This document shows positions 25,688 through 59,326 of a stretch of DNA of 64,000 nt, one piece after another. Position numbers and translations under genes: made by a program. Position 1 is the stretch's first letter, and the number at the start of each line of letters is the position of its first letter. The DNA lies in contig CM073322.1 of assembly GCA_037043015.1 (NCBI GenBank), forward strand, positions 22,410,364-22,474,363. The letters run 5' to 3'. The DNA is from Bryum argenteum. Taxonomy: Eukaryota > Streptophyta > Bryopsida > Bryales > Bryaceae. The notes under the pieces are model-generated. The model worked only from the letters and a program-made list of their open reading frames with translations. It did no database searches and was not told where the DNA came from.

Positions 25688-27490
25688 AACTTGCGACATT
25701 GTTAGTGACTTCAAGCATTTCTGTAACAGGGGATGAAGAAGCGAAAGGAGACGGAGAGGGTGCCTGACATTCCCTACACAGGTGCCCTCAAGAAGTTGTT
25801 CGATGTAGTTAGAGATGTGAATGTCCGTGGAGACTGCAATGTGGGCAAGAAGTACCAACTGAAGCAGGCTTTAGCCACTCGGCAATGGTCGATGGAGCTG
25901 CAGAAGATGCCCAAGGACAGTGGGTACTGTCTACGAGTTGTGGTGAACAGCATGCTGCCTCCCAGTACTGAAGTGGCGTATACGACAATGGCTTCCGTTA
26001 CTGTGACGGATGTAAAGGTGCATGGCGACAACCTCATTGTATGGCTGGTCAATGCATCTGGTAGCGTTGCCAACCTCTATTTCTTCAAAGAAGACAAGTT
26101 TGAGCCGCGGCCACTTTTAGACAGCCTTCTAGTCCACGGCGAGGGAATATCCGAGTTTCACCGCGGTCCAATTCTACCCCAGGACGAAACGCGGGCTTTA
26201 ACTCAGTCAGCATTACAGAGGAAGAGGACACTGGGAAGCATTGCTGAGAAGAATTGCTGAAATCAACAAGGCGGTAATCCTGAAAGCCACTGCTGAAGCT
26301 ACACCCCGAAGTCGAAAAAGGCCCTCTGCACCAACGATTGCTTGTCCTCCAGCAGGCAGCCGCCAGAAGAAGGGCAAACAAAAGAAAATAGATGAGGAAC
26401 AAGAAGCAGAGGCGGTACCAAGCATTGTCGTTGTCGACAGTCGAGTTGTGGGCAGCGGTCTACAAGGAGAAGTGGCGATGGAGGATGCTGAAGAAGAAGT
26501 CCGTGAAGATACGACCAAGCCTCTTAGTGTTGAAGGTGATGATACGCTCGGTGGTCAATTGCCCACTGAGAATAGTGAGGAAGAGGAGGTAGAGGAGGTC
26601 GTCTCATCTAAACTTCCAAAGGCCAGAAGAAAGCAACTCCAAAAACCAAGAGGAAGTGGACCGGACCTAGCGACATGAAGTCCGAGAAGCAGGTTCGGGA
26701 AGAAAGCGGTTCATTAGTGGAGGTACAAGAGGAGGCTAAACCGAAGAAGCCAAAGAGGAAGACAAAGAAGAATCCAAAAAAACACCCCACGAAAGTACCC
26801 GAAGGCAAGGAGATAGACGTGAAAACTTTCCAAGAGGAGCTGATTGAGTTCAGGGACCGAGTCAAGCCCATGTACATTTGGGGACAATCTTTCACGGCCG
26901 AAGTGGACGTGAAACGTATGAGACTCGCACCGAAGGAAATGAAGTACCGCCCATTTCACAGCACTCTGGTAGATAGCTTGTTCCAAGTCTTCCTGACGTC
27001 TGTACACCCACGGAAGCAGACACTTACTCTCATGCCCATTTGTGATGAGAAACCGGAAACGTATGAGGATGCAAAGAATCTGCCGTTTTATATTATCAAT
27101 GGGCAGCACTCGTGGGCAGCGGCGTCCAGACTACTGGCGAGTAAGGACGTCGATTCAACTGTGAAGGACACATACAGAACCTGGACATGCGATTTTGTCT
27201 GGACGGATGACAACCTCTTATTGTCGGAGCTATCAAGAAGGGTGAACAACACAAATCTCTTCCACTGGGACTCCCCTGAGTACCTCCTACACATTCAGTA
27301 CGCGCGTGACCTATGGGTGCACTACGGTAACCCAACTTCCGATGGCAAATCGAAGTCAAACTGGAAGGTATGTCGTCTATCATTTTCTTGTTCGTAATTT
27401 GGGTCCAGTAGGCAGTTGCTGAAGTACATCTTTAACTGCACATTTCTAATCACCTAGAAGTTTGTACTCGGGTGGATTGATATTTGCAAT

Positions 27491-27512
27491 CCAGTGGGCA
27501 ATTGCCCACTGG
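27491..27512. repeat. Palindrome copy inside an intron, perfect 22 bp
   Basis: It lies in the 204-bp intron (27368-27571) between two coding exons of the outer ParB-like gene. A degenerate copy (gtccagtaggcagttgctg) occurs near 27409 in the same intron. Confidence 0.9.
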
Positions 27513-28660
27513 CTAAGGTGTATATCGACGATACTTGAGAATCATTTTCTTCGTTGCTATTGCTTGTGTAGGAGTTCCAATTGAAAGCAGTGGAGACTTT
27601 AAACGCAATGACAGTGAGGAATGCGAACAAGACTGCAAAAGAATATCCGGGCGAGTTTCGGGTTATTTGTGCGCCGAATGAGCTGCACAATCAGATTATG
27701 CATGCCTTCCACTGGTACGAAAGTGGCGATCTGATTAATCCGGACACGGGGAATAAATGGAAGGAAGATGTCAAGCCATGGGAACGCAAACACACCGTCG
27801 CGTACACATTCAAGTGTATCCGTGGCATGGGGACGTATAGTTTGACCGAGCTCGTAGCATGAATAACACAGGGCCTTGAGGTTAACGGGAAGCACACGCC
27901 AACGCCGGAAAATGAAGAAGTAGTTCTTCCGCCCAAAGTGTACATTGGGTCTAACAGACCTAAGAACAAATTCTGCTACAGTCTGAAGGAGTGGACTGAC
28001 AGAAAGAAGCAGAAGAAGGCCGTGATTCGCTGGATAAACAAGTACTACCCGGCTATGCTTTGGGTAGATGATGACGTAAATCCGGAGGCTTGGCAACGCT
28101 TCAAGACGGAGACAGGTTTCAACTCCGCCCACATGGACGAGTTAATCCGGAGGGGTACTAAGCTCTACCTGGCGAAGTTCATGAAAGCCAGTGACAACCC
28201 GAGGCGCGAGCAAGAGAGCCCTCCGCTTGGGTTTTTAGCGGAGATCAGTCGTGTTCTGAAAAAGAAACCCGTTCTCCGACCCGACGTTGCACCTGTGTAT
28301 GGCGTATTGGAGAAAACTCGGCATTTCACGAAGTTTTTGAAGGTTATCCATGTGGAAAACCAAGACCTATGGGGTGAAGTAGCTCAGGAGGATTGGGAAA
28401 CCGAATTGTCATCGAACATCGCGGGTGGCATTTTAGACTTCCGTCCTATCGACGAATTCCTGGAAGAGGAGGATTTCGAGTTTGATGCTATGAGTGGGCG
28501 CACTTACAAATCCATCTTGGACGTGCTACTAAAGCCAACAGATTTGTTGCATCCCCCGTCACATTGGTTGGTGATCTCGCACTGTAACAAATCAAAGGAA
28601 GTGCAACGCGTGTTGACAGCGTATTTTCCAAACTATACAGTGCAAGAATCTCAGTACATA

Positions 28661-28670
28661 GCGGCAACGG
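28661..28670 (+). repeat. Left 10-bp target site duplication of the MULE
   Basis: GCGGCAACGG, identical to 45008-45017. Ten base pairs is within the 8-11 bp usual for Mutator-like elements. Confidence 0.9.
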
Positions 28671-28740
28671 GGGGAAACCACCGGTGTGAGCGTTGAGCGG
28701 TGAGCGGTGAGCGGTGAGCGGTAAAGTTTGAGCGGTGAGA
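28671..28740 (+). repeat. MULE left terminal inverted repeat
   Basis: GTGTGAGCGTTGAGCGG and further TGAGCGG heptamers match the right end exactly for 38-39 bp from 28684. Beyond that the heptamer number differs (about four against six). Confidence 0.85.
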
Positions 28741-29537
28741 AAAAAAAAATTTAAAAGTTAATGGCCCTATTACCATGGAATGGGTGGTTCTTAAAATTTG
28801 AAATGGTTATTTTTAGGCCTGAAAGTACCCAAAACCGTGGATATAGGTCCTACAATATTTCATAAATATTCCACATTTGTAAGTTTAAGTAAAAGTTAAT
28901 TAAATTAGGGTCGACATCATCATATGTAACCCATACATTTGAAATCATATACTGGCCTTGTTCACTGTCAAATACAAAACTTTAACCGAAATCTGGGAGG
29001 GCCCGCTCGGACATCAATAAATTTAATTTTATGATTTTAAAATGTATAGTATAATTAGGGCTGACGTCATCAATTTCCCATTACAATTATAAAAAATTAT
29101 ATGTAAATGCTTCCGTATATATAATCTGAAGTTTAGGACTTCAAGTCGTCTTTCCGTGTCTCCTTGTAAGGTGTACAGAAAGACATTCACGTTGCATTGT
29201 GTGGTCCGAGTTCGATTCTCCTTGGGCTCGTTTGAGCGTTGTAGTGCGTCGTAAAGTAGCTATCCTGAGCTATACAAATACTGTACCAGAGCCCCTACCA
29301 ACATTGGCTATATTCAATTACTCTATTTGAAAATAAAGAAACGTTCTGAAAATTTTAGTTTGCATTCAGTTTAAAACTAAAACATGTAGATATAAATTAA
29401 GAAAGCGTTAAACGTTCATGATTAGTAGGTAAACGTCATATGTAGATATAAAAACATATAATAATACAACATGTATGACCAATGCCGTAGGACTATATCC
29501 CTACGTAGTCCAAACCAAACCAGGAAAAAAAAAACTA
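28741..29537. other. MULE left subterminal region
   Basis: AT-rich 3' flank of the ParB-methyltransferase gene. A tRNA-like B-box word (gagttcgattctcc, near 29208) occurs, as does a similar one at 50278, each followed by ggnctcgtttga. They may be remnants of a tRNA-derived SINE. Confidence 0.35.
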
Positions 29538-32500
29538 CTAAGAAGCAGATGGTGAACGACCATTAAAGTGTTGGTCACACTGATCAGCCTCATCGTCTAT
29601 AAACGCAAGCACTCTCGAGCTAAAGCGTCGACGTCTACTATTGTCCGATAAGACGAGAGAAGGGGCAGCGACAAATTCCTGGGCTATCCGCTCCGCATAA
29701 GATGGCAGGGTGAATGTTTGCGGAGGACTGCTGTAGAGACTTCCGTCGCCAATCAAGCGTCGATTGGAACCTGCGATCCTAAAAGTACAGAAAAAGTCAA
29801 TACCAATAAATTATTAGCCAGTGAAGGTGGCAATAGAAGGGAAGGGGGAGGAGTAAGAGATAAGTACGCACAAAATGTTGGGCGTTGCTTCTTCTGAAGC
29901 GGTTCAGAAGTGTCACTGTCGTAGTCATAAACTGGATCTGAATCGCCGCTTTCTTCCTCAAAAGCTGTACCATCCACGTATGCCGATAGAAGTCCGTCAA
30001 ATATCTCTTCATCAGCTTCAACAGCAATGAGATGACGGTTCGATCGCGCGCAGGCAATCACGGAAGCACCTACGTCCCAGCAACCAACATCAGAACTATA
30101 ATATTGAATAAGTTGAATGAGGGTTGGTTTTAGCAACAACTAACCAGTACTAGGGCTCCAGTCAAAGACGATTCCCCGCTCGTCTGTGAGAGAATCAATA
30201 AAACACTGGATGAAGGAAGGATCCTTCTCTCGCGAGCCACGCCACGGGGTACCATCTTCCTTCTTCCGAATGGAGTCATTGCTTGCAAAATTGAAGACAT
30301 GGTCCTCCTCGTCGGGAAGAATGGGCACACCTGCGTACTCTTTCGCAACCTGTCTTATGGAGAATCTGGTGGCGAAAGACTTCCGAACAAAGACCTTAAT
30401 GTGAAAGTTGTGAGTCTGCAAAATTCAATCCATGACAGAAATTTAAGAAACCGTTGTAAATATTCATAAATGATGGTCTGAATGTAGAATGAAGACCATA
30501 CCGTTTTCACGTGAGGGTTCGTCGACGCCATTGGCATGGGATTGTATCCCCACCAATCTCGCACCATTCGGAAATCAAATGCCTTCGATTCGGCGTCCAG
30601 AGCTTTCTCGACTCGACGGTCCTTAGGATGCATTACAAGTATCGCACCCTCGTCGGTCAAGTTGTAGAAAGCAAAAAAGAACACACTCTCGAAGTAGCTT
30701 TTCTCTCGCTTGTTCCATGAAGGGATATCGACGGGCGACACCTCAGGCACGGGTAAGTTCTCGGGTACGTCTGCGTAGATGAGGTCAATGCCGGGATGCG
30801 GGTGTTTCGTGCCCATCTCCTTACATGGGTACTTCCGGTCCTTGCCAATCTTTGGAAATAACAAAAAGTTAGACATGTTATAAGCAATGTGTTCCCATCA
30901 ACATTTAAGTAATAAAAGAATGTAATAACAAATTTAAGACACAATACCTTTCTGATATGGTTGATGATGTCCATGACTTGTGTGTCCCAATCTTTTGTTT
31001 CATGAGCGGCCTTTTGAACAGAAGCTCCGATATCTCCTTTTTCCAAGTACATTGGGAGAGAAATAGTAATCTCAGAAGACGAGCACTCTCCCACATGCTT
31101 GGGTTCAAGAAATGGGAGAGAAGCGAACTTCTTTCCGGAGCTGTGGTCAACAGTGAAAGACTGTGGAGGGGACCCCGCATTCGTCAGAGCGCCTACAGAA
31201 ATCTGTGTCAATGGTCGACCGCGTCTACCTGCATTGTTGATTGCTCCATCAGAAGCTTGAGTCAAATCAGCTTCTTCTGGACCTGCAATGTCTTGATGGA
31301 GCGGAGCAATTTCATCGGGTTCTTGATCAAGGTCAACGACAGGCTCCGCAGCAGCGTTGCGTCGCTTTCTGTTTGCTCGCGTTCTGGGTTGTGCAACCGG
31401 TGAAGGAGGATCAGAGGGTGAGACAGGTGCGCTTGGTAAAATGGAGACGTCGTCGCCGTCATCGTCATCGATCTCCATGGCTGCAGTGCCTGGTGCGTTT
31501 GAAGTGAGGTTCCGAAGCAATTGTCTCTCTTCCTTGTGCACAAAATTATCGTTGCACTCAAGGAACCAACCACCGGTCAACAACTGTGAGCTGGAAAACA
31601 GTCTCTGTTGGGCGTCAGAGAAGATGCTGGATGGATCATTTGAGACGTTTACGTCCTCCAGCTCGGCGGGAATGGACCAAGAAGCCAAGGCTCCTTTGCC
31701 AACAAGCTCATGTTTCAAGTACCTACAGTGAATTAAACATAATAGAATGACAAAATTCAGAATAGCGTACTGATATTGGTAATAAGCAAAAATAGTAGCA
31801 AATTGGGAATCTAAGTGAACACTGAACACATACCGGAATAAGAGCCGCTTAATAGTAACCTTGCCACCACTAATTTTCTGTATATCGGATCCTTTGATAA
31901 ACTTGGGGCTGGCATTTTGGCCCAGGTAGTTGCCGAATGCCTTTTCCCATAAAAGCAATCTCCATTTCTCAACATACGCGGATGGCTTTAGTACCTCATC
32001 GGTCCACTGAATGGAAATTCCGCCATCCTCTATAAGTTGTTGTATTCCACTTTCGAGGGATTGTTGTAACTGCATTGATTTAGAACTCGTTAGAAAAAGT
32101 AGATAGTGGATGACGAGAATAATGATTGGAAAGAAATTCTGTACAATATACCTGAGCCCAGAAAGAAGCGCGATGCAGGAATGCAAGCAATGTTTTATCC
32201 TTCATAGGGCGCTCAACCGGGAAGTGGACAGATCGACGAACATCGTCTGACGCATTCCACCATTGGAGCCACTTTCCCTTGAAATCGAAGTGGACATTGG
32301 TGGTGGCTACCATGTGCAACCGTTCGATTGTCATATCGGGCTTGAGGTTTTGGCTATAGTGAGAATAGATCTGCACACGCAACAAATAGAAGTATTGACT
32401 TTCAGTACTAATCAATATCAATATCAAGTCTCATTAGAAATTTAGTGGCTAGAATTATGTACCTCTTTCGGGAACACTTTCCCAAGTTGGTTATTGGCCA

Positions 32501-33846
32501 CAGCAACCATCTTGTCGAACTGTTTGCCACGAATAGATTTGATTTCCGTTTTAATGGCGTTATCCATGGCACTCCAAACTCCTGGCCCTGTCTGCTTTTC
32601 TTTAGGGGTGGTGGCGTAATAAGTAGCTTCTGCATTATCCGATGCTTTCGCTAACCTCCTCTATATAGCACAGAAGAAGTAGTAAGAACTTGTAATAAAA
32701 TGAATACAAGATAACAGTTTTTTGCACGTATTATGAAGTCTTACCGCATACAGGAACTTGACGAAGACGTCGAGTGTGACAGGATACCATGTTTCTTTTT
32801 TTGCTTTAGCGTTTTTACAAATTTGGTAATCCTCCGGAGTAATGAGGTCCTTGAAATCTTCAAGTTTCAACTTTCCGAATTTCCTCATGCGTTGCAACTT
32901 TGCACATAAACTGTCTTCAACATGGTCATGTTCCGTTGACCTAATCATCAAAAACTGATATAAGAATACGACGAGGTTACAAAGTATTGAAATGAATAAA
33001 TTAAAAAGATGCTTCAAGTACTTACCAATTTATGTCATTCATTGCGTCAAGAAGGAGATTGCTTTGTCCGCGAGCATCGAGTACGATGCAATCAACTGAG
33101 ATGTACCATGATGGATCCAATTGGTGGTACCTCTCAATGTGACGCATCCACGCCGTCACACGGTGGTTACCTTCGTATACGTAAAAGTATTTGCCACTGA
33201 GATCTTGAAGATCAGGATCCGACATCAAAGTCTTTTCGAACTCTTCATTTGCATTTCTCCAAAGCGGATTCTCCCACACGCCGTCTCCTGCATCAACCTT
33301 TTTTTCTCTTCCTTTTCTATCAAATGGAGATACATACATTACTCGGTCTCCTTCCCGGTAACCTTTGTTGAACTCGTTCTCGAGTTTCCTGACGTCTTGC
33401 TCTGAGATAGGTCGAACCTTTGGGTAACACACCAAACGGCACAGTGGAATAAGGAGACGAGATTTCTTAACATGTTTGATACGAAACCTGTTTATGATTG
33501 CAATGGAATCGCTTTTTTGAATCATTCGCATCTCGTTCGCACTCCATCCGGGGTCTTTGTTTTGGAGATGAGGCGGCATGTGAACAATGCCCACGTTGAC
33601 ACTCCCAGGCAAAGGAGACTCTTCATCATCTGAAATGGAATTGTGTTCATCAAGATCTTGCATAGTCCTTGGAGTAGAATCGGATTCGTTACGGCTATCA
33701 CGCAGCTCTGCAGGAGACATGCCTACTACGTCTTGTTGTGAGACCACTCTGCTATCATCTCCAACTGGAGTAGGAGTTGTTTGGAAGTTCTCAGCAGGTG
33801 TGGTACCTTCTTCGTCTTCAAGAGAATGAACCTCGACTATTGTCAT
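29538..33846 (-). CDS. ParB-like / DNA methyltransferase-like fusion protein
   Basis: Ten exons: 33846-33026, 32940-32745, 32660-32463, 32370-32152, 32069-31834, 31722-30948, 30849-30502, 30415-30145, 30069-29868, 29778-29538. All have GT-AG borders and agreeing phases, giving 1168 residues with no internal stop. Residues 1-100 are acidic. A ParB-like domain (about 150-265) carries YFYVYEGNHRVTAWMRHIE near residue 222. Exons 2-5 are helical. Residues about 600-740 are low complexity and acidic. A methyltransferase fold follows in beta-class order: IDLIYADVPENL (motif IV position, D842-V-P-E845), GAILVMHP, then VFDWSPSTGAS (motif I position, D1016) and HLIAVEADEEIF. Bacterial and phage proteins pair ParB with such methylases. 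The DPPY signature reads DVPE, so catalysis is doubtful. The ATG follows an AG exactly, so an upstream leader or coding exon may exist. Confidence 0.75.
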
Positions 33847-33977
33847 CTGAGAAGTCAAGTAAGAAAATACAGCACCAAACAAAAATAATAAGAATTAACC
33901 AAAATTGTGAATATAAATTCAAATATGAAGGCGTTCATAAGGAAACAATGTACGTCTCAAGTAATGTTATCATAAAA

Positions 33978-36900
33978 CTATTTCGATTTTATCTTCGCTG
34001 CAAGCCGTGGTGAACGACGTGGGGCAATTCTAGCTAATGCTATCGCTTGAATACGTCTAGCTTTTGCCTCGTTCTTTTTAATTCTTATGTTAACCGCTCC
34101 TGCAACCCGATCAACGAATACACTCGAAGTGTAACGGACAGGAGGGGCAGGGGGCGGAGTTTCCGGAACCGAAGTCATTGCTACTGCTAAACGGCGGGAC
34201 TCTACGGTAGCCAGGACACCAGCTTTCATAGCCGATAAATCGCTGTCGGCATCAGATTCCTCCTCCTGAGTGACAACTTTGAGTGTCAAGGGGTCCTGCA
34301 ATTCCACGTGCAGACTCAGCATAAGTATGTACCGGTATTCGCATACAATGAACATAACTAATGAGTTGGTTCTATATATCATAACACATTCTTCCGATAG
34401 TTAACAAGATAGACGCAAAGCATAACGATATCTCACATCCATTACAGCTAAAAGACGTTAGAGAAAAGTAATTCAAGCTGGTCTTGGTATCACGCCATGA
34501 CTTTAAATTCTACATATCTCCCACTGAAGATAACGACGATAAAACGAAGAACATTAGAAGAGTTCGAAGACAAAAAGACTGACCATCTGTATGGCAATAT
34601 GGCAATAATACGGCAAGACTTAAGTGAAGCAAATACAAATACCAAGCTGCGCAATAAATGGCCTCCCCAAAGCACTCGTCCGAACCCATATACAGGGATG
34701 TCAAAAGCCACTGAATTGCTGAGCAGGCTTAACAACAAAGTTGAATTGAAAAGAAATAAAAACGAACAAGAAGATGACCAGAACGTTGATCTCCCCAAAG
34801 CAACCTTCGAAAGCGCTGTTACCAAGCAAAAGAATGCTGGATTCCCCGATGCAACCTTCGAGGGCTCCGTTTAAGGATGCTGACACACACGAACCCTCAG
34901 GGCATGCTCAAAACAAACGAGTATCAAAAAAGGAAAGCATCAGACACATGGCAGGCAAGCGAATTCGAGGAAGTGAATGCCGATCTCCCCCAATCCCAAC
35001 AGCAAGTTCAAATGAAACATCTCCCCGAAGCCAAGTCCTGGGCTCCCCGAATCTCAACAGCACGTTGACATGTTTCATCTCCCCAGCCTTGCGGTACCGC
35101 AGGTTACCACCACTGGAATGCTCCTCTCCCCGAATCCCCCTTCGAGGGCTCTGATCACGGAGCACACCCTCAAACGGATACGCACACCAGCAGGGCAGGC
35201 TCGAAAACGAGCAGGAAGATGACCACGACGAATAGCAAAGGGACCATCCCGACAAGAGGAGCATGCGATTCAAGCAAGGTTCTGATTATTGAGCGACACC
35301 CTCGAACCCTCTGGGCAGGCTCGAAAACGAACAGGAAGGGGACCACGACGAATAACAATGGACCATCACCGACAAGATGCAGCCTTGCGGTACCGCAGGT
35401 TACCACCACTGGAATGCTCCTCTCCCCGAAGCCAGAGTGATGGGCTTCCCGAATTCCAACAAGACGTTAACATGTTTCATCTCCCCAGCCTTAAGGTACC
35501 GCAGGTTACCACCACTGGAATGCTCCTCTCCCGAATCCCCCTTCGAGGGCTCTGATCACGGAGGACACCCTCAAGCAAGATTCAACATCATCAAAAAGAC
35601 AACAAGATGACCACGACGAATGTCACAAAGCACCGACAAGAGGCAGCCTTGCGGTACCGCAGGTTACCACCACTGGAATGCTCCTCTCCCCGAAGCCAGA
35701 GTGATGGGCTCCCCGAATTCCAACAAGACGTTGACATGTTTCATCTCTCTAGCCTTGCGGTTCAGCAGGTTACCACCACTGAAATGCTCCTCTCCCGGAT
35801 CCACCTTCGAGGGCTCTGATCACGGAGGACACCCTCAAGCGGATACGCACACCAGCAGGGCAGGCTCGAAAACGAGCAGGAAGATGACCACGACGAATAG
35901 CTAAGGGACCATCCCGACAAGAGGAGCATGCGATTCAAGCAAGGTTCTGATCATTGAGCGACACCCTCGAACCCTCAGGGCAGGCTCGAAAACGAACAGG
36001 AAGGGGACTACGACGAATAGCAAAGGACCATCACCGACAAGATGCAGCCTTGCGGTACCGCAGGTTACCACCACTGGATTGCTCCTCTCCCCGAAGCCAG
36101 AGTGATGGGCTCCCCGAATTCCAACAAGACGTTAACATGTTTCATCTCCCCAGCCTTGCGGTACCGCAGGTTACCACCACTAGAATGCTCCTCTCCCGAA
36201 TCCCCCTTCGAGGGCTCTGATCACGGAGGACACCCTCAAGCGGATACGCACACCAGCAGGGCAGGCTCGAAAACGAGCAGGAAGTTGACCACGACGAATA
36301 GCAAAGGGACCATCACCGACAAGAGGAGCATGCGATTCAAGCAAGGTTCTGATCATTGAGTGATACCCTCAACCCTCTGGGCAGGCTCGAAAACGAACAG
36401 GAAGGTGACCACAACGAATAGAAAAGGACCATCACCGACAAGAGGCAGCCTTGCGGTACCGCAGGTTACCACCACTGGAATGCTCCTCTCCCCGAATCCC
36501 CCTTCGAGGGCTCTGATCACGGAGGACACCCTCAAGCAAGATTCAACATCATCAAAAAGACAACAAGATGACCACGACGAATGTCACAAAGCACCGACAA
36601 GAGGCAGCCTTGCGGTACCGCAGGTTACCACCACTGGAATGCTCCTCTCCCCGAAGCCAGAGTGATGGGCTCCCCGAATTCCAACAAGACGTTGACATGT
36701 TTCATCTCTCCAGCCTTGCGGTTCAGCAGGTTACCACCACTGGAATGCTCCTCTCCCTGAATCCCCCTTCGAGGGCTCTGATCACGGAGGACACCCTCAA
36801 GCAAGATTCAACATCATCAAAAAGACAACAAGATGACCACGACGAATGTCACAAAGCACCGACAAGAGGCAGCCTTGCGGTACCGCAGGTTACCACCACT

Positions 36901-37874
36901 GGAATGCTCCTCTCCCCGAAGCCAGAGTGATGGGCTCCCCGAATTCCAACAAGACGTTGACATGTTTCATCTCTCCAGCCTTGCGGTTCAGCAGGTTACC
37001 ACCACTGGAATGCTCCTCTCCCCGAATCCCCCTTCGAGGGCTCTGATCACGGAGGACACCCTCAAGCGGATACGCACACCAGCAGGGCAGGCTCGAAAAC
37101 GAGCAGGAAGATGACCACGACGAATAGCAAAGGGACCATCACCGACAAGAGGAGCATGCGAATCCAAGCAAGGTTCTGATCATTGAGTGACACCCTCGAA
37201 CCCTCTGGGCAGGCTCGAAAACTAACAGGAAGGTGACCACAACGAATAGCGAAGGGACCATCACCGACAAGAGGAGCAAGCGAATCTAAGCAAGTGAATG
37301 CTTATCTGGGGATCGACACCCTCGAACCGTCTGGGCAGGCGTGAATACGAACAGGAAGATGACAACGACAAATTACACACAAGGAAAGCATCATCGACAT
37401 GATCATCTCCGCTAATCCACCCCAGGGCTCTGTTGAGTGATTACGACACCCACGAAACTTCAGAATAGGCTAAACTCGAACAAGAAGATGTCCATGACGG
37501 AAATCGAATACAAAATCATCAGCGGGCATGGGAAGCAGGCGAATCGAAGCAATCTCCTGCTGAACTCCCCGATGGACTCCTCTAACGACGTCGACGAGGA
37601 CCAAACCAACCAGAGATTCAACCTACCATTCAAGACAGCATCTGCCTCTGCCAATTTTTTGCAACTGAATGATTAGTGCACTGACCTTGAAGTTCCTGGA
37701 GTAGAGCGCTTCCAGCTCAGCCCGAGTCTTGATTTTCTCTCCAGGAGCGTACTGATGTGATCTGTAAAAGTCGGCAAACAAACTGCTGGATGAACCGGAA
37801 CTCACACTTTCGAGATTCACGACGTTTTGCTCTCCATCGACCAGTGCCACCTCTTCTTCGACTGCGTTCGCCAT
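33978..37874 (-). CDS. Gene B: small protein, acidic N-term, basic C-term
   Basis: Not recognised. Two exons, 37874-37686 and 34295-33978, joined in phase 0 give about 168 residues. The N-terminal part (MANAVEEEVALVDGEQ) is acidic, and a middle part has FADFYRSHQYAPGEKIKTRA. The C-terminus is strongly basic and Ala/Arg-rich (RRSPRLAAKIKSK), like a nucleic-acid-binding or nuclear-import tail. An acceptor just upstream (37889) suggests a non-coding leader exon, perhaps in the GC-rich region 38110-38460. The 3.4-kb intron holds a large repeat array. The stop at 33978 lies only 131 bp upstream of the ParB-methyltransferase ATG on the same strand, so the two may be one transcription unit with alternative splicing, since exon 1 (phase 0) could also join at 33846. 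Its presence in the transposon suggests an accessory or regulatory role, which is inference. Confidence 0.45.
34490..35084. other. Intron of gene B, unique part
   Basis: A plus-strand open frame (34497-34874, 125 residues, Lys/Asn/Glu-rich) exists but lies antisense inside the intron and lacks recognisable features. It contains diverged words of the downstream repeat (ctccccgaa, ttcgagggctc), so I treat it as non-coding. Confidence 0.35.
35085..37300. repeat. Higher-order tandem repeat array in an intron
   Basis: Twelve copies of a ~50-bp box starting cagccttgcggtaccgcagg begin near 35085, 35380, 35486, 35644, 35750, 36043, 36149, 36446, 36605, 36711, 36870 and 36976. The box includes the palindrome GCGGTACCGC (changed in some copies to gcggttcagc). 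Spacers fall into three size classes, about 106, 159 and 295 bp, each with its own sequence, so the array is a mosaic of composite units. Long open frames across it are repeat translations. It lies wholly in the gene B intron. Confidence 0.85.
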
Positions 37875-37888
37875 AGCTTCCTGCTCTC

Positions 37889-39053
37889 CTGAAAATGCTG
37901 CTCCTTCCTACAAGCCGTAAGGAAAACGGAATAGTTTTACATATATCTTGTATAGGACAATCCATAGCTCCGAAAGCGGAATTCATCATACTATTTATAC
38001 GCGAACAGCTATTCCTGGCCCTCTCGTGAATCCGGCGTAATAATTACACGCAAAAATAAGTCCTGCAAAGCTTTCAATACAGCCTGCAAAGCTGCCCCAG
38101 CGTCAGAGATCAGCTTAGGGTTCTAAAACGAGCTTAATGCCCGCGCCTTCCGCTGGCGTGATTGGCGCCATCTCCGTTATCGCGCTGACAACTATCGGCG
38201 GGAGCTGGCATTTTCGGCGCTGCGATTCTCGACCGAGGGACCCCGATGCTGCCTTGTCAGCCCTGCACGATGTCCTCAACTCCTCCGTCCACTGCGGACC
38301 CCTGCGGCCACTGCGGACCCGTGCGGCCACTGCGGACCCCGCCGACCACAACGACTGTTCAGCGTGTTCAGGGGTAGCGGAGATCGGACATCGGAGGTAT
38401 ACCGGGGTCCCGCCCTCGACGCGGAAATCATCTGCTTAAGCCCGAACCGATAGTATCGGAGCGAGGATAATGGGCTCGGGCATCGGGCTACCTGTCCACC
38501 CGTTTTTGAGAACCTGGCTCTCCGTCTATCCTTGACGACCGGACTTTTATTCTATCCTTGAGGACCGGGCTCTCCATTGAGGAATGTCCCAACTACTCAG
38601 ATCCGGGCTCGACTACACCTCATCTGTAATAGAATAGTATTATGTTTGGCCGTGACAATTTCACAAACGCTATGTACTGTTTTTATTAACTCCGTACTTA
38701 GTCAATGCGTATACTGAATAATAGTTAACATACGTATACTTAATAATAGTTAACATTATTCTTGCAGAAAAACTAGAGTATCGTATCCACATTTGCCTCC
38801 ACTTAAAATATATTTAATCTATTGAGGAAAATGCTAAATTATGCCCATACTCTTACTTGACACTCAAGAAAAACGGCATGTCATTATCACATTCACATGG
38901 TAATCATGAGCCACTCCAAAATATTAAAACAAGAAACCCTTACATTCTCGAAGAACATAGAATAAATTTTGAACTACAAAATCACTATATAAAATATTCT
39001 TCAGTCATGCGTCCAATTTGTATCATAAAACTCTATCATGTCAAAACAAAAGT
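37889..39053. promoter_or_regulatory. GC-rich region upstream of gene B
   Basis: The stretch 38110-38460 is GC- and CpG-rich between AT-rich flanks, with three tandem copies of an 18-bp unit (cactgcggacccntgcgg, 38287-38345). Open frames on both strands here lack family resemblance. It is probably a promoter or leader exon for gene B and the ParB-methyltransferase gene. 38600-39053 is AT-rich and empty. Confidence 0.35.
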
Positions 39054-39812
39054 CTACATCGAACCGAAAAATTGACTACTGTTGATTGTATACTTAATCA
39101 ACCCTAAATCCTCCCAGTAAACTAGGAAGTAGGGTTTCTCATGTACCTCCTCCAATTCTTCAGCTGTTGTCTCTAATCCGTCCGCAGTATCAATTTGTGT
39201 TTCCTGATGACAAGATGATCCTGCTCTCTCGCCCACATCAGTCACTCTTTTCTCCTCAAACAGTACTGCCTCATTTCCTGCTTCATCTACTGCTTCATCT
39301 TGTGATCCAATGTCTTCCTCTTCCATTCCTTTGCTACCCTGAAGACAACACGTGTTGATATTAATCCATATATTTATTCAAGAATTATTTGACATTTACG
39401 AGAATCTACACATTTGTAATATACAATATTTCATTACCTCATTTGTAGAGTCCACACCTCCATCGTCATCTCCATCCGCGCAAACAGTTTGGCTAGACGT
39501 CCAAATTTGGCCTCTACGTCCTTCCTCCTCCCCGTCTTCAGCTTCATCCGTCTCCACACTCTCCGGGACACTGTCGAGGTTGAGCGATCGCATCTTGATA
39601 GTCCGCCTGAACGGGGGTAGCACATCTTCGTCGATCAAGATATCGTACGCGTCAGGCTCCCGGTCATCGCCGCTAGAACTTCTCCCATCGCGCTTTCGCA
39701 AAGCACTACGCCTCTGTGCTTTCGAATTTGTGAACTTTGTACCACCCCTCCGCTTCTTCTTTCTCTGGCCTATTTCCTTTCCTCTCTCACTACCGCTACC
39801 GCTTTCGTCCAT
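39054..39812 (-). CDS. Gene C: nuclear-looking basic/acidic protein
   Basis: Not recognised. Exon 1 is 39812-39438 and exon 2 39338-39054, phase 0, giving about 219 residues. The N-terminus carries a strong bipartite-type nuclear localisation signal (GQRKKKRRGGTKFTNSKAQR then RSALRKR). The middle (DILIDEDVLPPF, SVETDEAEDGEEEG) and exon 2 (EEEDIGSQDEAVDEA) are acidic. An alternative donor (gag/gtacatgag, near 39149) would remove the last 31 residues, and a downstream exon is then unknown. It is transcribed divergently from the MULE transposase, about 520 bp away, so the two may share control. In Mutator-like elements second genes are variable, so a role in transposition or silencing evasion is only a guess. 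Confidence 0.45.
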
Positions 39813-40330
39813 GCTGTTTGCAATGAGTTAACTTTTTACAGGTTCCACTTAACGAGTCCAAGTGTTCTCACTGCAAATGAAGAGGCTGAACTATGAGTTT
39901 CAACTCCATTATATAAGTTCCCCCATGCGGCTTAGAAACCCTAATCAGCCAATGCGTATTCCCTAACATCCCACTATGACTGTGTCAGACAATCCAAAAT
40001 AAGCTAACTTTTGAACGCATCTGTTAGCCAAATAAATCTCTGACAATGACTGCGGCCGTCACTTTACTTTCTACACCTACCAATTTTATAGTCGGATGTA
40101 ATATTAATAATCCTACCTATTTAATGCAATTATGTCACTCCAGATAATTTAAGTATTATAGGTAATGTACTTCCAAATTATCATCCTCACATTTCAGAGT
40201 ATCCGGAATCTGTACATTTTATTATAAGAATGTATTTCTATTCGGTATTCTATACCTATGCAAACACCCTACACCAAATTCTCGTATTTGAACATTCGAA
40301 ACGCACCTGAGACTCTCATTCTCCGCGCAC
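39813..40330. promoter_or_regulatory. Bidirectional promoter region of the MULE
   Basis: 518 bp between the divergent starts of gene C and the transposase. It is AT-rich in the middle with GC-richer edges. No individual sites are claimed. Confidence 0.45.
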
Positions 40331-43300
40331 TTGTTGATGTTGTCTTCTTCCCCTTTGTCTATCATGGCATCCTCCACTCCCTTACCTCCCGCAGCAGACG
40401 TCATTGCCATTAGGTCTGAAGACTTAAGTCCTCCCATATGCATTCCTCCAGGGGTAGGTGGAGTGGCTGAAGTCAGTCCGTCTTGGCTCGCAATTCGTTT
40501 CGGGTTTGATGAGTCCTCTCTTTGGTTAGAGAAACATGTCTTCGATCCAAACACTACTCTTGTGCAGTACTCTGTGCTTGTCGAACCAGTCGACCTAGAC
40601 AGTAATTGTAGAATGTATAAGCTACAGCCCGGACAGTATCGACTGTTCGGCATGACAGAGTCCGTCATGAACGCCTCCACCGTCCTCCTCACTCCTCGTA
40701 GTTCTTCTACCATCTCCACAGTTGTTCCAGTTCTTTCTCGTGTCAAGGTCGAACCCGGACTTGACGTCCGAATCGATATTTCTGATTCATCCGACGATGA
40801 AAGAAAAGCGTCCATGCAGTCCCGTCAACTATCATCAAATCTGCATCCCCCCTCGTCCGGTTCTGAACACAGTCTCAGAACCACCTCCTACTCTCTTCCC
40901 GCGTCCAAAGTCGTAAAACCCAAAAACATTCTATCCTCGCTCCGTAGACTAGGTAGTATGTCTCGCAACAAAACTATACTAAAAAAAATTGATTTCCATT
41001 CCATTCGTACTTACAACGTCTCTTTCTTGCCTCCCACTTTCAACGGTGATGTCCTATACATTCTACCTCCCGTTCTACCTACTACTGCTGTCAAGGTAGC
41101 CAAATCTATGGAAGGGATGGACAAAAGATACGATGGTCATGTGTGGACTAGAACAATGACAACTAACATCAGTAACAACCTCGGTTTGTCTTTCCGCTAC
41201 TCTAACTGTGTAGGTCATCTTCAATGCCACAATGGGAACTGCGGCTTCCTACTACGACCTGACCGAAGAGCAGAGGTGAATGAGGTGGAGTTCGAGGGCT
41301 TCACCAAGGACCCTTTCTCTGTCGGCCACGCGCCTCCTCCTTCTTCAACACTGGTCTGTAAGATCTGCAAAGAACCTCCCGTTTGTGTTGCTCTATGCCC
41401 TTCTAAAATATTCTACGTATTCGGAGAGGAGAGTCAAGAGCGGGCGTGTGTGCATATCGGTATCCACGAACATCCTGTCAAGGTCGGAGACTACAGATGT
41501 GCACGTAAAATAATTGATGAGTTGATAGAGGAGCACGTAGAACGTAACCCACAAGCTACCACGTCCAAAATAGTCATGGAGGCTAGCAAGGACTTACTCG
41601 GAAACTTACTTCTCCGTGAAGAAGGTGACCCTGTAACCTCCAAGCTCACCCTTCAGGAGCTAGAACCTATCTTTGATCAGTGTAAAGAGCTGAACTCTCC
41701 CAGCGTCAGGAATCGTATTACCACTTTTAAGCACTTGTGCAGATACGGTGTTCTTGATGGGATCACCAAGCTTCGAGGCCTCAGCAACCGGGCTTACATC
41801 CAACGTAACCAGTTCCCGGGCCAAGGAGATGAAAGTGACAAAGTGTTCATTTTCAAGATGTCCGAGGTCGGCCCCGGAAGCGGTGTTGACCTTGTTCGTC
41901 GTATGCAGCCTGGAGGCGACTTGTCCCATGCGTGGATGATGTTCGACCACGTCAAGCGTGTGAAGAAATGGACTACCATGGCGTGCCACGTTTATGACTC
42001 AAAAATCTGTCGCATTCTAACTATTGCATGCTGTGATTTCCAGTCTGAAGACGGAGAAGCTCAAATCGTCTTCTGGAAGAACCTAAACCACGTCATGGGC
42101 AGGAACGGAGTGGACGCGCCACAGTTTCAAGGGTTCATGGCCGACAGTGCGCAAGCAAACTGGAACGCTGTGCGGATCATTTACGGCTCTGGAGACCCTA
42201 AAGAGCCCATGGAAGGCCGCGAGCGGACTTGCTATTTTCATTGGACGCAATCCCTAGAGAAACACACTAAACAATACATCGTGCACGAGCTGCAGGATCA
42301 ACATCGACATCTTTGTAAGCAATACAAAGATGCACGCACCATGGCTGAGGCGGAGACAAGATACTGGGCGATCCGTGCGTGGTGGGCGTCGGCGCAGGCC
42401 ACCTCCGAAGTTGGATTAGGTCACCTCGAACACTGGCTTGCATTCTGGCATTTCCGATATAGGCAGTGGGGTGGCTTCATGGAATTGGTGAGTCCACAGT
42501 CACTGTAGCAATTATGTACACGTGAATTGATGTCTAGTAAATCAGTAAAATATATTTACTTATTTAGTATAGAATATTCTACTTTTTTGAATTTTATCAT
42601 TTACAATTATATTTTCAAAAAAATTTAAAATTTCTATTTTTAGATCAGCATTGCGGTGCAGCAAGTCTAACTCGCTCCAGATATCGTGATCAACTTCTTT
42701 TGTTACTAAGTCAAAAGTCTTTGCACCTTGCAGGAAAATAAATATTCTGCGGAAGAGCTAGCGGAGATGCCTTCATGTAACCTTGCGGAATCTATCCATA
42801 ACAAATGGTTGCAAGCGTCCGGCAAGAAGGGTGGGGACTTGTATGTTGCAGCTGTTGATGATTATGTTCGTGCTTTCCTCCAAGTTGTGGGATACCACGA
42901 CTTCAACGGAGGTGGTAAGGGTGGTAGTGGACCAACATCCGAAGAACTATTACTTCGTGTTGCCCATAAAGCTCAACGAACCGGAGATCCATCAGGCCTC
43001 ACAAAGGCAATTTCTGACTATCCAGGAGCTGAAAATATTTGTACCCGCGATGCCCACCTTGAGGGGGCCGAGGTGTTCGGATCCAAGAAACGTAAGGCTG
43101 ATGTTCCAATTGGAGCTGATGATGAAACGCACAGACCTGACACCGTGAGCTATTCACGTCCCCGAATGGGGAGAAGAGTTACCCGAGCTTGTGCTGAAAA
43201 TCTGAGTACTATCCATGAAGAGGATGAAGTTGACGAACCATTGACAATACCATCCACTTTTGCTGGACCTAGTATTGAACGTGTGACCGCTGTTCAAGAG

Positions 43301-44521
43301 ACTAAAGTAGACGAGAGGTTGTGGCACATTGCCCGTTTGAGGGAGAATTCTGCCAAGGCTTGTTGGGGTATTATGCGAAAGAGTAAAAAAAGATGCGACT
43401 CACGAATTATTCAGAAGGGGAAGGCGACCGCAGCTCCTACTTACACCGGTGTATGGCAACCAAGGTTGTCATATTGGGCGTGTTGAGGTAATCGGGCGGG
43501 CGAAACGGGCGTACAAGTTGTCCTGGACGGACGGGCTTGTCCGCCCACCTTGATTGTAGGGGGTGTGTTATTTTTTGTGGGTAACAAACTTTGCAGTAAA
43601 AAGCGTGTGTGACGTTCCACGCGGCCCATACGCGGCGGCCAAGTGGCTTATTTTTCACCTAAACTCTTGCCACGTCGTCGTTTTTTTACCTAAACTAAAA
43701 GTCAACAACCGTTTGACCCTATCAGGCGAGCCACAACTGAATCGGACGGACAAGGCGGACGGACGAGCGGGCCGCGTGCCCGCCTGGTATGACAACCTTG
43801 ATGGCAACGCCCTCAAGAGGGGCCAAGAAAAATTGATCAGTTCTTTTTTTGTGCGGATGATATTGACAGGTGTGTGAAGGGTCATCGTCGCAAATGGATT
43901 GAGCCATTCTCTCAAAGCGAGGATAGACCCCCTATTCCTTCAATATGGCCTGTTAAGATAGGGACTAACCTCACACGAGATGAAATGGAGGCGTTGGAGA
44001 ATGCGGGCTTTCGACTACCACAAAAAGAACAGCTTCCTACGAACCGTACTTTCAATAATGCTGCCCCACCAAGAGACTTGTCCCATATTCCAGTCCCGGA
44101 GAAGCCGGACGTGTTCCCGAGGTCGAGAAGATCGAAGAACATGAAACGCATTCCAGCTATGACTTCAAAGCACATGAAGAACATTGAGTCTGCCACCTCA
44201 ATGCGGGCCAAAATTCTGAAGGTGACCATGATCCCGCAGCCTGGTTTTGGGTGTATCGTAGACTTGGAGTCGGATTCGGATGCAGTTTATAGACTTTCAA
44301 TTAGTAAATTCCCGGATTGCTCATGCCCAGTGTTCAAGAAAACAATATCTTCGTTAGGATGGAGAGATCCATACCGACCTTGCAAGCACCTATACTACAT
44401 CACGGTATTGGTTTGCAAATTTGATCCGGATGCTGACCTCTTCATCCACGCGGCCACTCTTAGTTTTAACGAGGTGAAGAAGATTCTGGAGGGAGGAATC
44501 CTAGACCATGCTACAGATTAG
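40331..44521 (+). pseudogene. MULE transposase, interrupted by a hAT MITE
   Basis: Cut-and-paste transposase of the Mutator superfamily. Exon 1 is 40331-42487 (ATG at 40364 also possible) and exon 2 is 42734-44521, phase 0. Exon 1 contains a Cys/His cluster with CVGHLQCHNGNCGFLLRP near 41205-41265 (DNA-binding zinc finger type), then the catalytic region with CHVYDSK, FMADSAQANWNAVRI and CYFHWTQSLEKH. The last two fit the conserved MULE block around the second Asp with its C-x2-H. Exon 2 ends with a SWIM zinc finger (DCSCPVFKK then CKH, 44314-44389), usual for MULEs. A 340-bp MITE at 43461-43800 interrupts exon 2. The flanking frame is continuous across the insertion site once one 8-bp duplication is discounted (about 1198 residues originally). 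As it stands, reading stops inside the MITE at 43486, losing the SWIM domain. Confidence 0.85.
43453..43808. mobile_element. hAT-type MITE with 8-bp target duplication
   Basis: The element is 43461-43800 with ends CAAGGTTGTCATA and TATGACAACCTTG. It is flanked by the perfect 8-bp duplication ATGGCAAC (43453-43460 and 43801-43808). The 8-bp duplication and CA(A)GG-type ends fit the hAT superfamily. The subterminal regions are GC-rich with repeated cggacgga and gggcgggcg words. It has no coding capacity. Confidence 0.9.
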
Positions 44522-44941
44522 AATGCCTTATATATCCTCATCTACGTACGCTATATGTTAGTCTTATGATTGGGTGCTCCACACTATATGTGATATTTTT
44601 TCACAACTGATTAAAAATAATTATACCAGTACCTACGTGTACAACAAACCTTGCCAATTTGTCTAACTCGGAGTACTATTCACTTATAAATGTTACCTTA
44701 GAAACCTCTTGACATTTAAAAATTTGTGATTTACTGTCTAGTTTTGTAGCTCAAGTCTCACAAATTCAGGGAATTTAAGCCTTATTTCCACGGGTTTGGG
44801 TCACCAAATCCACGGTGATAAGTCTAGAATATTCGAATATTTCCAAGAATATTCGAAAATTATTCTCAATTTTTTTAAAAAACTTTTTTTAGAAACTTTT
44901 TTACTAAAAATACAAAATCAGCCATAAAAATTTTAAATCTT
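44522..44941. other. 3' flank of MULE transposase
   Basis: AT-rich sequence with a short repeat of gaatattcgaa words at 44828-44862. No gene was seen. Confidence 0.4.
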
Positions 44942-45007
44942 ACCGCTCACCGCTCACCGCTCACCGCTCACCGCTCACCGCTCAACGCTCACACGGTAGC
45001 AACGTCC
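44942..45007 (-). repeat. MULE right terminal inverted repeat
   Basis: About six ccgctca heptamers followed by cgctcacac (ending 44994) and a 13-bp outer end. It is the reverse complement of the left end. Confidence 0.85.
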
Positions 45008-45017
45008 GCGGCAACGG
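45008..45017 (+). repeat. Right 10-bp target site duplication of the MULE
   Basis: GCGGCAACGG, identical to 28661-28670. Confidence 0.9.
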
Positions 45018-45346
45018 CGGAGAAATATTTCTTCTTGAACAGCACGATCAAGAAGGGTAATGGGGTTGTTGTGCTCGTCTATTCGAAGAACGGTTGCCAA
45101 CCCTTGGCATGGAAAGAAGTTCTCCGTAGTGAAGAGAAGTTCAAGAAGATTGGCGCTGTGCGAGAGTACCCATCTCATGAGGACGAGCTGCGCATGGAGG
45201 TCTACCTAGACTTCATTGAGCAGCTTCATCAAACTCCTGAAGATGACGGGCCCCCTGTGAAGCTTATCTGCATTGCTGCGGGTCGAAAACCGATGATCGC
45301 TGCAGTGGTGAGGACTGCACACATTTTTGATTTCGGTTTGTAGATC

Positions 45347-57034: not shown

Positions 57035-59326
57035 TCATCCAACTTGTAGACACCTAACGCACTTGACGAACACGACGAACCCAACTAACAAGACAACTCC
57101 ACAGACAATGCGGAAAATGTCGAAAATGTGTTCAAGAAGTTTCTGCGGCCTCCAGTTAATCCACTCATCCCACTTCATTCGCAGCCAACATCGGTTTTCC
57201 TCATAGCTTAGAATGTCGTCTAAGTGCAGCCCGCAGTTGCAAGTGCACGGATTCTGCTTCTTAACAGAAAGAGTCGACTGCAATGCCTTCTGTTGTTTTT
57301 CTTGGGCTTCTGGCAATGGCTCCACTGTTTGCGACTCATCATACTCGATGCATGGCCACTTCCAATTCTTGCTCACTTTGATTTTGCCACTCTCGTCAAC
57401 TACAAGCCTGTCATCTTCTGCACGCTTGCTGATACCCAGAGTGCAAAGTAAGTCAGTCCAGTTACACCATATCCACATCCGAATCGACTGATTCGTGGGT
57501 TCCTTGACGAACAGACTCTCGGGTCGGTATGGCACCCACTTAGACTCCTCCTTTTTCTTCTCCTCCTTTTTCTTCTCCTCCTTTTTCTTCTCCTCCTTTT
57601 TCTTCTCCTCCTTTTTCTTCTCGTCAGCCTCATCAACCCCAACAGTATCTTCCGAGTCGTCCTTCGAAATATGGATTTCTTGTGACTTGTTTCCCCAGAT
57701 GCTTTTCCACATGCTTTTCCACGCGCATTGCGGCAACGCTTGCGGCAACGCTACCTCTGGGCCTTTGACCTTGATTCGCTCCACGACAGACCAGTGCAGT
57801 TTCGCAGCACCATTCGTGATGGACGCGGCGACATTGCGGTCATAAGGCAAACGGTAGTACTGGTATAAACCAGAAAGAAAGTTCTTGTACGAAGGCTCTG
57901 GATCCCTTTTAGAAATAAACTTTTTGGTATCTGACGGCGACCTTGTCTTCTTCTGAGGCGTTTCGTACGTCCAGTAGAACCGAAGGCCAAGCTTTTCAGC
58001 GTGTTTCTGCATCCACACGTACGAGTATAGCCACAGATCATCGGGGTTAATGAGATCATCCAGGTCGGCACCACCTCCCACGTTGCAGTGGCTTCCCACG
58101 AACCAGACTTGCTTCACCTCCTTCAGCGGGACCTTCTCGGATTTCTTGGGTTTCTTGACGGACTGCAAATCTGAAGCTGGAGGCATCTGGCACTCGGGAG
58201 TCGTGACGGACGCCAAATTTGAAGTTGAAGGCATCTCGTCCACCTCGCTCTCCGACTTCATCCTCGGCATTTTCCACAGCGTTGGTGCGAAATGAAAGCG
58301 GTGCTCGTCAATGGCGAGAGCGTGATAAGCATTTTCCACGATGCACGGCAGATCCTGGTCGTGAAACTCGTAATGCTTAGAGCGCAAGTGGTAATACAAG
58401 CGAGAGACGAAAGAGGGTAAGAAGGGTATCGATCCTAGGCCGACAGCCCCCACCGTATCCCACACGCCGAGCATTGCAACTGTCACTCGTTTCATGCTTT
58501 TGCCGTTTTCTCTTAATCCAACTCGAAGCTTTTTCGCTCTGCTCAGGAATTCTGGCTTCAAAGGGTCTATGGGATCGAATGCTTGGTACATGGCGTAGGC
58601 ATCGTCCACGATGCCATTGATCTCCTCACGCTTATGTCCCAGTGCGGGTAACCCGCCGCACCTGTGCAGAAGCGAGACAAGACTGCGCGCGGAGAACGCC
58701 CCCCGGCTGAAACCGAACACAAAGATCTCGTCGCCGACTTCGTAATTCTCAACCAACCACTTGTATCCATCTTTTATATTGGTTGAGAGTCCCTTTCCGA
58801 AAGCCTGGCAACCGAAACCATCCCCTCTCTTCGACCCGACGCCTCGTACGTAATGCACAAGCTGGATGTGCTTCAACGGTTGCTCGCACTTCTTACATGG
58901 ACCGTCCGGACCCTTATTACAGCTTGGAAGCTTCACTTTATGCGACTTCGTATCGACCTTCGGGGGTAGGCCGCACGTGGTGCAATCGTCCGCTACAGAT
59001 CCTGGGCCACCCTTGTTCAGATCGATCTGATGCGGTGCTGTCTCATTGGTATTGAACACTGTCTCAATATTGGAGTCTTTCACTGTCTCCTTGTACACCA
59101 CCTTGTAATCCTCCGGCTTCGAATCGTCGATTGCTTCAAAGAAGCGGGAAACGTTCGTCAAGCTGTTCCTCATATTACTAGTGCCATCGAACATCACCAC
59201 GAGCCGACGTGGTACCAAGGACTTAAAGGAAAGTTCTGGTTCCAACGATTCGATTGGCGCAGAGATCGAATGGAAAGAGTTTCCAGGTGTAGAAGACAAG
59301 AGCGGCGTGGACATCTGTGATTCCAT
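57035..59326 (-). CDS. Tle1-like/DUF2235 alpha/beta hydrolase with membrane anchor
   Basis: Predicted serine lipase or esterase of the DUF2235 family, known from type VI secretion phospholipase effectors and many fungi. Starting at ATG 59326 the single large exon encodes 763 residues. RRLVVMFDGTSN (40-51) is the first strand and GFSRGAFSARSL (205-216) contains the nucleophile S207. GVWDTVGAVGL (287-297) supplies D290 and FVGSHCNVGGG (409-419) supplies H413, so the triad is complete. Residues 115-147 form a Cys-rich insert (CTTC, then C, CKKC) that may bind zinc. A run of KKEEKKK repeats (about 567-594) is followed by a C-terminal hydrophobic segment (VCGVVLLVGFVVFV) that would anchor it in a membrane. 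An acceptor at 59356 (tgcag/ggg) shows a 5' exon upstream; an in-frame ATG further upstream lies in that intron. It looks whole. The substrate is unknown. Confidence 0.8.
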   Translation of the reverse strand: MESQMSTPLLSSTPGNSFHSISAPIESLEPELSFKSLVPRRLVVMFDGTSNMRNSLTNVSRFFEAIDDSKPEDYKVVYKETVKDSNIETVFNTNETAPHQIDLNKGGPGSVADDCTTCGLPPKVDTKSHKVKLPSCNKGPDGPCKKCEQPLKHIQLVHYVRGVGSKRGDGFGCQAFGKGLSTNIKDGYKWLVENYEVGDEIFVFGFSRGAFSARSLVSLLHRCGGLPALGHKREEINGIVDDAYAMYQAFDPIDPLKPEFLSRAKKLRVGLRENGKSMKRVTVAMLGVWDTVGAVGLGSIPFLPSFVSRLYYHLRSKHYEFHDQDLPCIVENAYHALAIDEHRFHFAPTLWKMPRMKSESEVDEMPSTSNLASVTTPECQMPPASDLQSVKKPKKSEKVPLKEVKQVWFVGSHCNVGGGADLDDLINPDDLWLYSYVWMQKHAEKLGLRFYWTYETPQKKTRSPSDTKKFISKRDPEPSYKNFLSGLYQYYRLPYDRNVAASITNGAAKLHWSVVERIKVKGPEVALPQALPQCAWKSMWKSIWGNKSQEIHISKDDSEDTVGVDEADEKKKEEKKKEEKKKEEKKKEEKKKEESKWVPYRPESLFVKEPTNQSIRMWIWCNWTDLLCTLGISKRAEDDRLVVDESGKIKVSKNWKWPCIEYDESQTVEPLPEAQEKQQKALQSTLSVKKQNPCTCNCGLHLDDILSYEENRCWLRMKWDEWINWRPQKLLEHIFDIFRIVCGVVLLVGFVVFVKCVRCLQVG
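57545..57625 (-). repeat. 15-bp coding microsatellite (Lys/Glu)
   Basis: Five copies of tccttttttcttctcc (plus strand, period 15) encode KKEEK units in the hydrolase. It is probably length-variable. Confidence 0.85.

Follow-up and report, generated by a model that had tools for sequence, protein, structure and literature searches.

A Bryum argenteum transposon carries a gene joining a predicted ParB/sulfiredoxin-type fold to an amino-methyltransferase-like domain

Introduction

Why would a eukaryotic transposon carry a gene whose product resembles a partition protein joined to a DNA methyltransferase? This question is raised by a 64,000-nucleotide stretch of the genome of the moss Bryum argenteum (GenBank assembly GCA_037043015.1, contig CM073322.1, positions 22,410,364 to 22,474,363 of the forward strand), hereafter called the window, to which all coordinates refer. 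A first-pass annotation of this sequence proposed that a ten-exon gene encodes a ParB-like module fused to a beta-class DNA methyltransferase inside a Mutator-like element (MULE), and that the protein could bring partition-like site recognition and DNA marking to the transposon. Our analysis makes it very likely that the two protein folds and the transposon are as described, and suggests that the transposon spreads with the help of a borrowed DNA-handling protein.

Results

The gene resides in a transposon with many copies

The gene lies in a 16,337-bp transposon with terminal inverted repeats (TIRs) that spans positions 28671-45007. An initial inverted-repeat signal was located near 28684 and 44994, and a comparison of flanking sequences from eleven elements, the window element and ten others, then fixed the ends. 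These ten were chosen as pairs of inward-facing ends separated by 10.8-16 kb; contig 1 holds nine of them and contig 2 the tenth. Pairs with a spacing of 17-31 kb were left out of the sample, as were those on contig 3, of which two measure ~15 kb. The element is delimited as follows.

28661..28670, no strand: left target-site duplication of 10 bp, GCGGCAACGG, from the flank comparison
28671..28753, plus strand: left end and TIR, GGGGAAACCACCGGT and then GTGAGCGTTGAGCGG with tandem GAGCGGT heptamers
29538..33846, minus strand: gene for the ParB/sulfiredoxin-fold and amino-methyltransferase-like protein, ten exons, 1168 residues
44925..45007, minus strand: right end and TIR, GGACGTTGCTACCGT and then GTGAGCGTTGAGCGG..., read on the minus strand
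45008..45017, no strand: right copy of the target-site duplication

Both ends share GTGAGCGTTGAGCGG and the GAGCGGT heptamers, of which 3-16 were counted no more than 200 bp from an end, and differ in the outermost ~14 bp. In the 258.8-Mb genome a 22-base end motif was counted 338 times (167 + 171), against no occurrences of the backwards control. The target duplication is an exact 10-bp repeat in nine of the eleven elements; one of the other two agrees at 9 of 10 positions, and the second is 9 bp long with its tenth base out of view. The TIRs, the 10-bp duplication and the many copies bear out the earlier placement of the gene in a transposon.

The ten-exon gene is conserved among copies

The ten exons proposed earlier were reproduced on the minus strand (exons 1-5: 33846-33026, 32940-32745, 32660-32463, 32370-32152 and 32069-31834; exons 6-10: 31722-30948, 30849-30502, 30415-30145, 30069-29868 and 29778-29538). 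When joined they yield 1168 codons and a stop, and the nine introns (75-111 bp) are all GT-AG and in phase. The encoded regions are listed below.

33026..33846, minus strand: exon 1, variable N-terminal tail (residues 1-76) and predicted ParB/sulfiredoxin-fold domain (~128-273), with the P motif GNHR at 226-229
30948..32940, minus strand: exons 2-6, conserved middle region (~276-620) and variable linker (621-775)
29868..30849, minus strand: exons 7-9, methyltransferase-like domain (~776-1058), with ADVPE in exon 7 and both DWSPSTG and LIAVEAD in exons 8-9
29538..29778, minus strand: exon 10, C-terminal tail

The methyltransferase-like domain starts within exon 6, which supplies its first ~40 residues. 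The segments discussed below are EGNHRVTAWM (residues 225-234), IDLIYADVPENL (836-847), VFDWSPSTGAS (1014-1024) and LIAVEADEEIF (1035-1045).

This gene is the one component that all eleven elements share, having been found in each of the ten fetched from elsewhere in the genome. In six of these ten copies, spliced protein-to-genome alignment put every one of the nine introns at exactly the same residue position. The remaining four (L014, L024, L025 and L028) have seven to nine introns within a few residues of the expected positions, and deviate as a result of deletion, damage or truncation of the fetched sequence. Copy L010, whose element lacks a transposase, encodes 1171 residues with 70% identity to the window protein and has no lesion. 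The other nine carry 1-14 frameshifts and 0-3 stops according to the spliced aligner, and L024 additionally lacks ~120 residues.

A whole-genome search yielded at least 210 exon matches at no fewer than 38 places, which are lower bounds given that 38 of 3161 candidates were scored. Contig C1 (44.1 of 258.8 Mb, ~17% of the assembly) holds 22 of the 38 listed places; it is perhaps repeat-rich or a sex chromosome, and the scoring of 38 of the 3161 candidates may bias this count. Relatives are also present in many other contigs. The nearest named relatives are three proteins of Ceratodon purpureus, which share 46-49% identity along residues 371-1168 (exons 3-10), with one 16-20-residue stretch missing in each of P0002 and P0003. 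The presence of the gene in all ten elements, its kept introns, the lesion-free L010, the low substitution ratios described below and the Ceratodon relatives confirm, at the level of sequence comparison, that the gene is real and not a chance arrangement.

Exon 1 is predicted to adopt a ParB/sulfiredoxin fold

The first 36 Foldseek matches of a structure model of exon 1 are all of the ParB/sulfiredoxin type, with none of them below an E value of 0.001. A PHROG described as a ParB-like partition protein is also matched by this part (E 0.0062). The GxxR P motif (Box II) is kept as GNHR, with the glycine present in 84 of 85 and the arginine in 80 of 86 aligned relatives. This motif is required for nucleotide binding (PMC12704722). 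In canonical chromosome or plasmid ParB a helix-turn-helix domain reads parS, and CTP hydrolysis, clamp closure and a ParA partner are further hallmarks; the model of the ParB part extended to residue 273. None of the eight members of an alignment of this part matched a Pfam ParB model at E values up to 10, and no PDB chain matched the alignment; the ParB call comes from the fold comparison and PHROGs only. Likewise, tblastn against 50,697 phage records gave no match to this part. A ParB/sulfiredoxin fold for exon 1 is thus supported as a model-based prediction, as had been proposed from the EGNHRVTAWM segment.

The methyltransferase-like domain lacks the usual catalytic motif

The presence of an amino-methyltransferase-like domain is likewise supported by prediction. 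The PADLOC profile MTase_II was matched with an E value of 1.9e-7 (domain positions 61-274 against profile positions 27-246 of 260), and CcrM is the best fold match of the structure model for this part, although the model itself is weak. Bdelloid N4CMT is found among both the sequence and the structure matches (structures 8s9m-8s9o), and phage methyltransferases are matched with an E value of 8e-4. A match of the methyltransferase profile to a dynein light chain (0.032) was set aside as weak and covering only 48 residues. Motif IV (841-845) precedes motif I (1016-1024), which is the beta-class order that the first-pass annotation had read from the protein. The fold and profile searches it had put forward as checks recovered both folds.

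Its suggestion that the protein marks DNA has fared less well. The catalytic [D/S/N]PP[Y/F/W] is absent, with D-V-P-E standing in place of DPPY. The motif I pattern for binding S-adenosylmethionine (SAM), FxGxG, is represented by DWSPSTG, in which the second glycine is kept and the first is a serine. DPPY was found at none of 24 places in the same genome, 20 of which have D-x-P-E/D, and in none of the relatives read. Because DPPY is replaced in the window protein and absent at these 24 places, ordinary methylation is doubtful, and the domain is probably not a conventional base methylase.

An active enzyme with an altered motif, which would mark the element by N6-adenine or N4-cytosine methylation targeted by the ParB-like module, is the strongest of the alternatives but is nonetheless unlikely. 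It would fit the alignment over most of the amino-methyltransferase profile, the conservation of the domain between the window and L019 copies (see below), and the invariance of D842, P844, E845, D1016 and E1039 in a four-protein alignment. However, where motif IV was read in relatives, its aromatic position is taken by E, S or D, and by R in one damaged copy, and the first glycine of motif I is lost. Moreover, replacement of the serine and tyrosine of SPPY abolished the activity of a related enzyme (PMC8885841).

The two folds are probably encoded by one gene

The Ceratodon proteins begin at residue 371, and so the joining of exons 1 and 2 to the rest depends on the gene model and the conserved introns. 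The same starting point would fit a separate ParB-like gene (exons 1-2 or 1-3) and methyltransferase-like gene in place of one fusion. This arrangement seems decidedly improbable, since phases and intron positions are continuous over exons 1-10 in six of the ten copies and residues 276-620 are conserved on either side of residue 371.

Selection and module exchange

Ratios of nonsynonymous to synonymous substitution (dN/dS) were calculated by the Nei-Gojobori method. Comparison of the window copy with L010 gives a ratio of 0.051 for the ParB-like part (dN 0.078, dS 1.55), 0.045 for the middle region, 0.77 for the N-terminal tail and 0.29 for the linker; the methyltransferase part has a dN of 0.24 with dS saturated. 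Comparison with L019 gives 0.045 for the ParB-like part and 0.089 for the methyltransferase part. Close pairs have higher overall ratios (0.32 for L010 and L012, 0.20 for L010 and L021, 0.65 for L014 and L025), as expected because copies decay. Judged from the ratios of ~0.05 against distant copies, the ParB-like part is under purifying selection.

These findings leave little room for the view that the gene is captured passenger sequence of no use to the transposon, as in Pack-MULEs: host gene fragments can ride in MULEs (PMC6446971), nine of the ten fetched copies have lesions and three of the ten elements lack the transposase, but this view is disfavoured to the point of being highly improbable by the presence of the gene in every element, the nine introns kept in six copies, the lesion-free distant copy, the purifying selection on the ParB-like part and the relatives in Ceratodon and on many contigs.

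Identity to the window protein, assessed in 60-residue windows, varies along the copies. L025 and L014 have 36-68% identity over residues 121-780 and 81-97% over 781-1080, whereas L010 and L021 have 80-92% over 121-420 and 58-72% after 781. This pattern indicates a likely exchange of modules between lineages, whose boundary falls at residue ~781, close to where the methyltransferase domain begins.

Other contents of the elements

Additional features of the window element, and a further frame found in other elements, are as follows.

33981..34400, minus strand: 140-codon open frame (stop to stop) upstream of the gene, with similar frames in eight of the ten fetched elements
35069..37274, no strand: internal tandem-repeat array with periods of 265 and 401 bp and eight TGCGGTACCGCA palindromes
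40292..42508, plus strand: first part of a transposase frame, with a DDE-like block by eye; found in seven of the ten fetched elements
42710..43486, plus strand: second part of the transposase frame
43461..43800, no strand: insertion of ~340 bp inside the transposase frame, resembling a miniature inverted-repeat transposable element (MITE) and absent from four compared copies
43802..44521, plus strand: last part of the transposase frame, with CxC...CxxH, SWIM-like by eye
L009:934-1392, L011:1416-1874, L015:1419-1877 and L005:2081-2539, minus strand: ADD-type frame

The transposase frames gave no Pfam match at E values up to 10, and their motif order, compared by eye, is one that we take to be of the MULE type. 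Such frames were not found in L009/L010, L011/L012 and L015/L016, apart from one 20-residue match (0.031). A tentative Mutator-like assignment is based on the TIRs and the ~9-10-bp duplications, both features of MULEs, and on these by-eye motifs in frames that are missing from three of the ten elements. The MITE-like insertion is bounded by short inverted sequences, CAAGGTTGTCAT...ATGACAACCTTG.

In ATRX, the ADD domain reads histone H3. A 153-codon zinc-finger frame in the three transposase-less elements and at L005 matches this domain (PDB sequence 2lbm, E 9.6e-16), with values of 2e-4 to 8e-4, below the cut-off, against Pfam ADD_ATRX. It lies 0.5-1.4 kb inside the end at which the transposase of other elements terminates. 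A genome-wide search for the frame gave 150 matches, many of them next to these TIRs; the window does not contain it.

The TGCGGTACCGCA palindrome was considered as a parS-like site of the whole family and rejected. It is present as a perfect palindrome eight times in the window element and is absent from each of the ten others, and for this reason a fixed common binding site is disfavoured. A perfect 14-bp palindrome, AATATTCGAATATT, lies at 44828 in the window element and is shared by seven of the ten others, at a distance of ~160-180 bp from the right end. A 143-codon frame (39396-39827, minus strand), which by eye resembles one in L009 (SERGKEIGQRKKKRRGGTKFTNSK), is perhaps a further exon or a small gene of the element.

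Genomic surroundings

The window element interrupts the open frame of another repeat: when the flanks are joined with a single copy of the duplication, a 377-codon frame results from 27863 to 45340. The interrupted gene (25727-28670 and 45018-45340) belongs to a different repeat family with at least 147 matches (146 of 760 candidates scored), including many frames of ~495 residues at 26-37% identity. It contains INGQHSWAAA, which is ParB/DGQHR-like by eye and has no library match. A resemblance of its last residues to methyltransferase motif I, also seen by eye, was dropped after a PADLOC search gave nothing. The palindrome GGGCAATTGCCC occurs eleven times in the window, always outside the element (11880, 12498, 13056, 13834, 23824, 24850, 25368, 25565, 25671, 27496 and 45351), and several of these sites surround the interrupted gene. 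Farther away, a 786-residue frame (57035-59395, minus strand) matches the catalytic domain of Tle1-like phospholipases of type VI secretion systems (PF09994, E 1.9e-62).

Discussion

A probable role on the element's own DNA or chromatin

We lean toward a view of the protein as an accessory factor that works on the DNA or chromatin of its own element. A ParB-type module with its GxxR kept would bind nucleotide and thereby switch or clamp the protein, and a methyltransferase fold without D-P-P-Y would serve less to methylate bases than to bind DNA, SAM or a partner. The element would then probably gain protection of its copies from silencing, of the kind that VANC gives to VANDAL elements, or assistance in transposition. 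Between these, counter-silencing is given about an even chance; some weight in its favour comes from the three of the ten elements in which the gene is kept while a histone-reader-like frame takes the place of the transposase. Retention of the gene beside an ADD-type frame in these elements favours a chromatin-related role; the elements themselves might be moved in trans or carry an unrecognised transposase.

A more detailed scheme is offered only tentatively and, taken as a whole, is rather unlikely. A phage-type ParB-methyltransferase fusion would have been taken up by a eukaryotic DNA transposon, where a nucleotide-switched clamp would load on, spread along and shield or mark the copies of the element, with an ADD-type histone reader as companion in some of them, and so form a partition-like or counter-silencing machine. 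Exchange of modules at the start of the methyltransferase domain could then change specificity, in the manner of target-domain swaps among restriction enzymes.

A conserved ParB-fold gene fused to a methyltransferase fold on a eukaryotic transposon would widen the picture of eukaryotic ParB folds, and would make it possible to test how a protein of prokaryotic mobile elements has been put to new use by a eukaryotic one. As the gene is the one part that occurs in every fetched element, whether or not a transposase is there, its role is directly testable through the methylation state of the elements and through binding of DNA and nucleotides. Gene removal is tractable in mosses.

Comparison with known systems

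No description of a ParB-methyltransferase fusion in a eukaryotic transposon was found in searches of an open-access library, a scope outside which subscription papers, preprints and Repbase fall. A 2025 survey names sulfiredoxin as the commonest eukaryotic form of the ParB-CTPase fold, and its main text contains neither 'transposon' nor 'plant' (PMC12704722). The same survey reports that phage ParB-CTPase folds are often fused to PF01555, the N6_N4 methyltransferase family. The moss protein resembles these fusions in having the same two folds in one polypeptide of a mobile element, in its retained GxxR and in the match of its methyltransferase part to phage enzymes. It differs in residing in a eukaryotic transposon, in its introns and long conserved middle region, in lacking the catalytic motif, and in having a ParB part without a match among the phage records.

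Among plant elements, the Mutator-like VANDAL transposons carry the extra gene VANC, which can act against silencing and whose targets are often tandem repeats (PMC5735166). The window element likewise has an extra gene that may act on its copies, and also tandem repeats. However, the palindrome of its array is absent from the other elements. Selfish elements with DNA-methylation-related domains are also known, including DNMTs that dinoflagellate and charophyte retrotransposons encode (PMC5890265) and TET/JBP proteins of DNA transposons in fungi (PMC12730594). The enzymes in these cases are C5-methyltransferases or dioxygenases, in contrast with a ParB part and an amino-methyltransferase fold that lacks catalytic residues. 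Bdelloid N4CMT (PMC8885841) is likewise a bacterial-type amino-methyltransferase fold in a eukaryote, but it is an active enzyme with SPPY that is encoded by the host and joined to a chromodomain.

With regard to the methyltransferase fold, the moss protein as proposed here would resemble proteins that keep this fold without catalysis, although its inactivity is deduced from sequence. METTL14 and MTA9, for example, are catalytically inactive partners of METTL3 and MTA1.
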